The position numbers and the translations under genes are program-made. DNA of 64,000 nucleotides from Prochlorococcus marinus (GTDB taxonomy: Bacteria > Cyanobacteriota > Cyanobacteriia > PCC-6307 > Cyanobiaceae). Position 1 is the first letter of the stretch; each line of letters opens with the position of its first letter. The notes beneath the pieces were generated by a model. It did not search any database. It was not told where the DNA came from and saw nothing but the letters and a program-made list of their open reading frames with translations. The stretch lies in assembly GCF_001180305.1 (NCBI RefSeq), contig NZ_CVSX01000042.1, positions 1 through 64,000 on the forward strand, read 5' to 3'. Of this stretch, positions 2 through 54,321 are shown piece by piece.

Positions 2-556
2 TTTATTGTGGCAGCTTGCGAAAATATGATAAATGGATCTGCAGTACATCCTGGAGACGTAGTTAAAGCATCTAATGGTAAGACAATTGAAATAAATAAC
101 ACTGATGCAGAGGGTAGGCTGACCTTGGCTGATGCTTTAACTTACGCATCAAATTTAAAACCAGATACAATCATCGATCTTGCCACTTTAACAGGGGCAA
201 TTGTTGTTGCATTAGGAAATGATGTGGCTGGATTTTGGAGTAATAATAATGATTTAGCAAATGATCTAAAAACTGCATCATTCGATGCCGGAGAAGAATT
301 ATGGCAAATGCCTTTACAAAAATCTTATAAAGAAGGGTTAAAGTCTCATATAGCTGACATGAAAAATACAGGTCCTAGAGCAGGTGGTTCAATTACTGCT
401 GCTTTGTTTCTACAGGAATTCTTTCACGAAGATATAAAATGGGCTCATATTGATATTGCAGGCACTTGTTGGACTGATAAAAATAAGGGGATTAATCCAT
501 CAGGAGCAACAGGCTTTGGAGTTAAAACCCTCGTTCAATGGATTAAAAATAAATAA
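2..556 (+). CDS. pepA: Leucyl aminopeptidase PepA, C-terminal part (5' end outside window)
   Basis: M17-family leucyl aminopeptidase, a cytosolic two-metal exopeptidase that removes N-terminal residues from peptides. The reading frame is open to the left edge, so about 184 C-terminal residues are present and roughly 300 are missing upstream. The diagnostic NTDAEGRL motif, which supplies metal ligands and the catalytic Arg, is intact, as are AACENM and the [11 protein letters not shown] segment. The GTG at position 8 is internal, not a start. It converges on msrA 12 nt downstream. Identity is secure from the motifs. Confidence 0.95.
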
Positions 557-47442: not shown

Positions 47443-47541
47443 GAACCAGCATTTAGGAAGTGCTTAGCTGGTTAAACTCAGGAATTCTGAATTTAACAAG
47501 GTCGTCATGAGCTTGCAGGTGGGATACCCGCAAGCTCTTTT
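47443..47541 (+). ncRNA. Probable small non-coding RNA
   Basis: About 100 nt less AT-rich than its surroundings. A 5' hairpin AACCAGC/GCTGGTT (47444-47473), an unstructured middle (AACTCAGGAATTCTGAATTT) and a terminator stem GAGCTTGC/GCAAGCTC with inner GGG/CCC, followed by TTTT (47509-47541). A TATTACAAT box ends at 47441. No ORF fits. Resembles the compact Yfr-type sRNAs of picocyanobacteria in size, but no specific name can be given. Confidence 0.65.
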
Positions 47542-53187: not shown

Positions 53188-53382
53188 TTATTTTAAGTAA
53201 ATTGATCCTCTATAAGTAAGCTTTATTCCCTTTTGTTCAATGTTTCTACAATATACGAATGACTTTCCGTTGAAATACATGTTTACCATGATGCAGCTCC
53301 TGAAAACTTGCTCAAGTCCCCGTCCTATGGCTTGAGTCGTACTGCGGTCTATCAAATAGTAGATCGGACGATTTTGTAGCAT
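53188..53382 (-). CDS. Small protein with DUF4278-like YRG ending, 64 aa
   Basis: MLQNRPIYYLIDRSTTQAIG, then RGLEQVFRSCIMVNMYFNGK and the end IKLTYRGSIYLK. The LTYRGxxY motif recalls the cyanobacterial/phage DUF4278 proteins, where it lies at the N-terminus; here it is C-terminal. The coding region is less AT-rich than its flanks, which could reflect transfer. Function is unknown. Confidence 0.5.
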   Translation of the reverse strand: MLQNRPIYYLIDRSTTQAIGRGLEQVFRSCIMVNMYFNGKSFVYCRNIEQKGIKLTYRGSIYLK

Positions 53383-53910
53383 TAACTACACTTAATTAAT
53401 AGAATATTTATTCTTAGCTGTCAACTCTTATTAGAAAATAGGCTTCTATTTGAAATTAGATCTTTCAATTATAAAATCCTTAAAAAGAATCAATAACATA
53501 CAACTACAAGTAACCCCTATAAATAAGGAAGTAAGTTCCTGCACAACTCAAATAGGATAATGTAGAAAACCCATTATTAATTTTCTAATATAAATTTTAG
53601 TTGAGTCTCTGCACTAAGAATATCAATTCTTCTCTTAAATAATTTAAAAAATCTAATTATTTTTTTCAAAATTAAACCTTCTTTTAATTACTAACAATCC
53701 TATTATTCATAGGATTAATATATCAATGAGCAAAAATACTGAATCAATTGATATGACTAAATTCATTAACAATATTTATACAAAAATTTCGAATATATAC
53801 TATATAGCTTTTACTTTGCGAATTGACTTATAAGGACCTATTCAACGAAAGAATCGCAATTTACGATCCTGATACATTGCAGAGATATTTTTAGTTTGCT
53901 AAAAAGATAG

Positions 53911-53951
53911 AGCGGGCTAAGGTCTAATGCTCCACGAGGATTTAGTCCGCT
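53911..53951 (+). ncRNA. Hairpin RNA element A (loop complementary to element B)
   Basis: AGCGGGCTAA (53911-53920) pairs with TTAGTCCGCT (53942-53951) over 10 bp with one G-U pair, around a 21-nt loop containing TCCACGAGGA. The patch is clearly less AT-rich than its surroundings. The loop plus part of the 3' arm (53931-53947) is the exact reverse complement of 54079-54095. Strand is uncertain. Confidence 0.5.
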
Positions 53952-54078
53952 ACTTAAATAAATAAATTTAAACTTCTATCAAATAAATTAATAACCATAT
54001 GATAAAAATATCTTGATTGCTTGATAAATTTATTTTGTATATTGCTATTACAAAATTTTTAAGGTTATTTGAATTAGT

Positions 54079-54118
54079 GACTAAATCCTCGTGGAAAAAG
54101 CTTTAGTTAACTTTTTTT
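54079..54118 (+). ncRNA. Hairpin RNA element B with T-tract
   Basis: ACTAAA (54080-54085) pairs with TTTAGT (54102-54107) around a loop with TCCTCGTGGA, followed by TAAC and a run of T: terminator-like. 54079-54095 is a 17-nt perfect reverse complement of element A. It could end an RNA starting before element A or be a separate RNA. Confidence 0.45.
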
Positions 54119-54321
54119 ACTCGTTATTAATGAGATCAGCCGCATCACATTATGGAGAATCGATAGTATCAGTAAAAGTTACTTATAATTCGATGAGAAA
54201 TTATTATTGATTTTAATAAACTTTTTATTGAAGTCTTCTAGTATTAAATCTAATAGCTTGTTAAGAATTGACTAACTTATTTTTAAGTTAAATTGATCTC
54301 TTATCACTATTGCAAATAACT

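Follow-up and report, generated by a model that had tools for sequence, protein, structure and literature searches.

Features of the locus

On the plus strand of the window (the whole 64-kb stretch of DNA that was analyzed), a hairpin preceded by a promoter-like sequence is followed by a second promoter-like sequence and by a 39-codon gene whose start region is complementary to part of the hairpin. We refer to the hairpin as A and to the gene as B1; their coordinates, and those of the associated features, are listed in Table 1.

Table 1. Coordinates of the elements of the A-B1 locus within the window.
Feature	Position	Strand	Basis or remark
Putative promoter of sRNA A (TTGCAG 53877-53882, 17-nt spacer, TAAAAA 53900-53905)	53877-53905	+	Promoter-like architecture
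Hairpin A, proposed antisense sRNA core	53911-53951	+	Scores 65.5 bits with covariance model R1
Antisense segment of A (part of loop and 3′ arm)	53931-53947	+	Complementary to 54079-54095
Putative B1 mRNA promoter (TTGATT 54013-54018, long 19-nt spacer, TATATT 54038-54043)	54013-54043	+	Few substitutions in the blocks
Site targeted by A, including the B1 start codon	54079-54095	+	Block ACTAAATCCTCGTGGAG, exact in 44/58 unique places
"Hairpin B", weak; the start codon would sit in its loop	54080-54107	+	MFE -8.4, z -1.14
B1, 39-codon gene, GTG start (VEKALVNFFYSLLMRSAASHYGESIVSVKVTYNSMRNYY)	54091-54210	+	Purifying selection in frame

The antisense segment of A (TCCACGAGGATTTAGTC) and the target site are reverse complements of each other over 17 nt without a mismatch, as the first-pass annotation of this DNA had reported, and the match lies within a 31-nt inverted repeat that is 81% complementary. 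It was the sole 17-nt pair in the 64-kb window among inverted pairs that have at least six G/C and a distance of 30-300 nt between their arms. No pair of 14, 16, or 17 nt appeared in 30 dinucleotide shuffles, and pairs of 12 nt averaged 0.03. The complementarity is real and beyond chance, as had been argued from the letters. The predicted gain from pairing of A with B1 was -19.1 kcal/mol, a value reached by none of 1000 window 56-mers drawn away from the element (mean -4.0, best -12.8 kcal/mol); in a first control set of 200 56-mers, in which overlap with the element was possible, the best value was -18.6 kcal/mol.

Hairpin A as a candidate sRNA gene

Hairpin A folds with 11 pairs, G-U included, a bulged G, and a short inner helix (z -2.1), and 8 of 200 shuffles folded equally well; we accept the hairpin as real, in line with the earlier description. 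The covariance model R1 was built on the plus strand from 24 variants of A. Of 336 pair cells counted for A, 97.6% were standard, and two pairs had changed on both sides. Covariation was modest, with measures that were reached by 13-17 of 500 shuffles. G-U pairs were frequent, which favors the plus strand. A function of the minus strand is disfavored, as the plus strand scored 51-70 bits and the minus strand 20-30 bits at the same places with this plus-built model.

In 101 scored loci, the loop bases of A that are complementary to B1 were non-consensus in 3.0% of cells, as against 10.1%, mostly at one position, for the four other loop bases. These percentages omit the 14 of 115 A loci missed by the hairpin pattern, namely decayed copies plus the intact L040, L041, L046, and L114, and adding the decayed copies would lower the conservation figure; L097, also omitted, is the opposite strand of B.

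The putative promoter of A has TGC immediately 5′ of its TAAAAA block and ends 5 nt before the hairpin. An arrangement of TTGNNN-(16..18)-TANNNN, 4-8 nt before the hairpin, was found at 90 of 101 A loci and at 153 of 5360 (2.9%) random positions, a count that reflects conservation and not 101 independent cases because the loci are related. Solitary copies of A have the promoter-like block, as do those next to B and those of the MED4-like group, and we infer that A is transcribed from it. A clear terminator for A was absent in most of the loci inspected by eye, and in some loci decayed copies of A lie next to an intact B1. Judged by these sequence features, A looks like a separate sRNA gene with a promoter-like sequence of its own.

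"Hairpin B" and the B1 gene

The first-pass annotation had described a second hairpin followed by a T-run, at which termination might be controlled. A hairpin is present there but is weak: its stem joins ACTAAA (54080-54085) to TTTAGT (54102-54107), and 26 of 200 shuffles folded equally well. The T-run is not a conserved terminator, for it encodes Asn-Phe-Phe-Tyr of a conserved ORF and is interrupted in 12 of 21 aligned rows, and a terminator scan reported no terminator at B. An intrinsic terminator or attenuator was rejected on these grounds, and control of termination at B is unsupported because B starts a coding region.

The evidence for coding comes from the substitution pattern. Over 85 places (58 unique) found by whole-element similarity or by hairpin A, the nonsynonymous/synonymous observed-over-expected ratio was 0.47 in the B1 frame and 1.3 and 0.92 in the other two. 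Across the 58 unique places, the ratio was 0.48 for the B1 codons from 54112 onward, third codon positions took 114 of 251 changes, and B1 was the only one of the three frames over 54091-54210 under purifying selection. A first test with 117 unique aligned loci had given 0.48 for the B1 frame and 0.98 and 1.12 for the others; it was repeated on the 85 places because 96 loci (L048-L143) had been fetched with a pattern fixing 54080-54113, which biases the 117-locus test there, as well as parts of the A-B pairing and B1 coding comparisons. The start codon was GTG in 54, ATG in two, and TTG in two of the 58 unique places. By these comparisons, "hairpin B" is the start of a conserved coding gene, B1. 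An upstream frame, ORF1 (TTG 54017 or 54035 to TAG 54106), was considered as a hydrophobic peptide and rejected, with ratios of 1.2 and 1.1 and with several rows carrying stops in its frame; shifting the frame one base beyond ORF1 gave a ratio of 0.57 in the 117-locus test despite stop codons.

A protein search of 151 genomes of the genus found B1-level matches, scoring at least 69 bits, at 105 places in 94 of the genomes; five of these places have an in-frame stop and 100 do not. At 39 aa, B1 falls below the limit of ~60 aa for type I small proteins. B1 is not strongly hydrophobic: GRAVY values of -0.01 and 0.14 and best 15-residue windows of 1.17 and 0.99 are far below those of TisB (1.62 and 2.64). 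The B1 and B2 (see below) protein families had no match in Pfam or PADLOC, and the best E-value among PDB sequences was 0.26 (B1/B2); B1 alone was compared with NCBIfam, without a match, and with PHROGs, with a best E-value of 0.13. The libraries searched contain no match to this small-protein family. At the RNA level, no Rfam family reached its gathering threshold over the A-B stretch (the best match had E 0.29 and 20.7 bits, where the cut-off is 69), so that a known riboswitch was rejected, in agreement with the first-pass annotation.

Conservation and specificity of the pairing

The complementary block covers about -11 to +6 of the B1 start. Among 32 neighboring A-B pairs that were not pattern-fetched and were scored in a common register (five more rows were unscorable), pairing extends through all 17 positions in 22, and the other 10 carry one to three mismatches. 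The window's own pair belongs to these 10, and a shift of register by one brings it to 17 bp. No compensatory double change between A and B was seen among the 32. The examination of homologous loci proposed earlier as a check has a mixed outcome: the target is exact in most places, and some pairs carry uncompensated mismatches. In MED4, the B1 target differs by one base, at which a G-U pair is still possible.

In 12 genomes that are 99-100% complete, copies of A and starts of B1 were the only sites differing from the target block at no more than one position. Sites with two mismatches occur elsewhere in those genomes, and with up to three mismatches several genomes were not above the backwards control (e.g., G152, 7+3 vs. 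4+9).

Arrangement of A and B1

The usual arrangement, seen at 129 of 139 B places (a number that includes some loci fetched twice), has A 45-117 nt upstream of B in the same orientation. At four other places A is distant, 5.4 kb downstream of B1 in MED4 and 1.4-3.6 kb upstream in L078, L112, and L117. The remaining six had no A in the fetched stretch, one of them (L059) being at a contig end. Because A follows B1 in MED4 and can be present where B1 is absent, the two need not share a transcript.

This bears on the choice, left open in the first-pass annotation, between one RNA that switches and two RNAs that pair. A cis-acting switch would be a single transcript running from the A promoter through B and alternating between two local hairpins and a long-range helix. 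The usual close spacing on one strand suits such a switch, as does the joint A+B strand, for which the MFE structure was the long-range helix. The distant copies of A in MED4, L078, L112, and L117 mean, however, that a switch within one short transcript is not general; B retains its own promoter-like block at loci where A is not adjacent, hairpin B is weak, and its T-run is coding. We regard the switch as very unlikely and favor the two-RNA option, with which the promoter-like sequence of A and the copies of A without B agree.

Five copies of A without an adjacent B were read, four of them beside a ribbon-helix-helix (RHH)-like gene and the fifth being that of MED4. At the four (L032, L043, L045, and L046) the hairpin is solitary and the RHH-like gene, whose RHH match is below the Pfam cut-off, is on the opposite strand; L046 belongs to a genome lacking any B1-level match, and its copy of A has drifted slightly. 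About 60 covariance-model entries score 62.6 bits, as the solitary type does, and at least one of these (G191) adjoins B1.

Distribution and origin

Conservation of the A-B element extends through the genus to which the window belongs, which we take, from the presence of MED4 in it, to be the high-light clade. A and the B family (B1 or B2) had an identical distribution, 23 of 24 genomes of the genus and none of 276 genomes from 58 other genera. By the covariance model, A was present in 120 of 151 genus genomes and in 47 of the 52 that are at least 90% complete. In this sample of 151, A and B1 occurred together in 91 genomes, B1 without A in three (G460, G474, and G486, 65-80% complete), A without B1 in 29, and neither in 28. 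That A without B1 is common and B1 without A is rare fits a toxin-antitoxin logic, and linkage explains part of it because A and B1 usually adjoin.

The 29 genomes with A and no B1-level match, such as G376 (99% complete, ~140 contigs), also indicate that A may have other roles. They argue for reading A as an sRNA whose principal targets lie elsewhere, B1 being a minor target or a relic. Against this reading stand the absence of any other site with at most one mismatch in the 12 genomes screened with the full target block, and the lower variability of the B1-complementary loop bases relative to the other loop bases; we consider it unlikely.

R1 also matched the opposite strand of B1 starts at four places (21.6-24 bits), a weak hint from sequence that A may be an inverted copy of the B start. 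The same matches, and the presence of several copies of the element in some genomes, could be explained by a non-regulatory repeat with an inverted repeat, or by a terminator for a minus-strand gene. Such an explanation is highly improbable: it does not account for selection on the B1 frame, for G-U pairs that suit one strand, for the conserved promoter-like architecture, or for the many solitary copies of A with equal scores. A phage origin of A and B was rejected as well, as 136 stretches of viral contigs fit the peptide pattern but none was confirmed, the A pattern had no hit there, and phage records gave E-values of about 4 or no match.

In MED4 (G152), Yfr20 was found at exactly 1336435-1336523, matching Table 1 of PMC2518516, and the elements lie at 770.25, 775.5-775.8, and 1350.5 kb. 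The predicted copies of A span 770253-770293 and 1350540-1350581 and B1 spans 775680-775796, all on the minus strand. At 1346025-1346084 of this genome, ~4.5 kb from its second copy of A, a B-like match of 24.3 bits is short, contains a stop, and is perhaps a relic.

The paralogue B2

A second subfamily, B2 (MEKSFLNFIYWILVKSAESYYGDSLKTEVPYTPYF type), has the core NF-YW-L--SAES-YG in common with B1, and in MED4 it follows B1 in tandem. The longest A-like complement near B2 was 9-11 nt in 11 of 11 loci, and an A-like partner for B2 is disfavored accordingly; the same procedure on B1 controls found 16-17 nt in four of five, and only 11 in MED4. At eight B2 loci (L231, L236, L237, L238, L240, L241, L244, and L246) there is a conserved leader of its own around CTACGATGTTTTTAT, with small variations, and several of the eight have a possible AGGAA/TTCCT hairpin just before the ATG.

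Proposed control of B1 by A

Sequence comparison shows that A and the B1 start are complementary, that this match is conserved and specific genome-wide, that B1 is coding, and that A and B are located independently of each other and co-occur. We think it probable that A is an antisense sRNA that represses translation of B1, working like a trans-encoded type I antitoxin. In this view A would be a gene for a small antisense RNA, with transcription from a promoter of its own. The RNA would use its 3′ arm and part of its loop to pair over ~17 bp with the B1 mRNA, at about -11 to +6, probably beginning with a loop-loop contact, and the duplex would exclude ribosomes so that B1 is repressed. A block on initiation is suggested because the pairing covers the B1 start. 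Pairing of the two RNAs in the cell, repression by that pairing, and the toxin-antitoxin-like logic all belong to the proposal.

The wording "works like" a type I system, and not "is" one, was chosen because of the linkage of A and B1, the weak hydrophobicity of B1, and the lack of a complement for B2. In a full type I toxin-antitoxin system B1 would be toxic when made, A would be the antitoxin, and solitary copies of A would be immunity or anti-addiction RNAs. B1 almost always occurs with A and A often without B1, several copies are present in some genomes, and the length of the pairing resembles that reported for OrzO-zorO (18 nt; PMC3919570). The contrast in hydropathy with TisB, the absence of an A-type partner for B2, and the share of linkage in the co-occurrence count against it, and while the idea deserves to be taken seriously, we lean against it. 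A still more specific version, a lineage-specific type I system of the MED4 group with a new non-membrane toxin family (B1, with B2 differently controlled), a hairpin antitoxin derived from an inverted toxin start, and solitary guard copies protecting genomes without B1, is speculative and on the unlikely side.

Comparison with known systems

RNA antitoxins silence small toxins in other bacteria, and type I toxins are usually hydrophobic membrane proteins. The tisB/istR-1 system resembles A/B1 in its trans-encoded antitoxin RNA and tiny ORF. IstR-1 exerts its effect at a standby site well upstream of the tisB start, whereas the A/B1 pairing covers the start codon. Yfr1 and Yfr2 are likewise two RNAs with nearly complementary exposed motifs, but both are non-coding and the motif is different.

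The zorO/orzO locus of E. coli, as described in PMC3919570, is similar in that a short sRNA is near, but does not overlap, a tiny gene, in its long perfect pairing (18 nt, of which 15 continuous nt suffice), and in being duplicated. In that description the two genes are divergent, the toxin is a hydrophobic protein of 29 aa, and toxicity was demonstrated (PMC3919570). A/B1 differs from the system so described in its same-strand or detached genes, pairing at the start codon, little hydrophobicity, and solitary sRNA copies. In a cyanobacterium, Microcystis, msoT1/msoA1 is comparable as an antisense-controlled small protein but, according to its description, has a cis-encoded antisense RNA and a 63-aa protein with predicted membrane helices (PMC12390103). 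The authors of that search noted that their method was not designed for trans-encoded type I systems (PMC12390103). Should B1 prove toxic, A/B1 would represent a trans-encoded type I system of a cyanobacterium. The presence of A and B1 in most genomes of the group, together with an exact predicted pairing site, makes them a directly testable regulatory unit.

In MED4, Yfr6/Yfr14 and Yfr8/Yfr9 are RNAs that carry small ORFs and have antisense partners, for which a possible toxin-antitoxin role was proposed (PMC2518516; PMC1242208); as tabulated, they are overlapping antisense pairs at 339.9-340.2 and 627.7-628.1 kb (PMC2518516). The MED4 sites of A, B1, and B2 overlap no ncRNA in the two published tables used for comparison. 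A literature search, largely confined to open-access main texts, found no paper with the sequence strings of A or its target or with the two protein motifs, and searches by subject brought up no earlier description of the pair.

Two known elements lie in the same window. On the minus strand at 53188-53373, a match to the Glutamine-II riboswitch (53311-53373) is followed by a 33-codon frame with its ATG at 53289; this unit is likely a homologue of Yfr6, for which a possible peptide of 33 aa was published (PMC1242208). Yfr20 (RF02367) is on the plus strand at 47447-47536, ~6.4 kb before hairpin A, and Yfr20 and B1 were within 10 kb of each other in three of six genomes checked (G117, G095, and G359).
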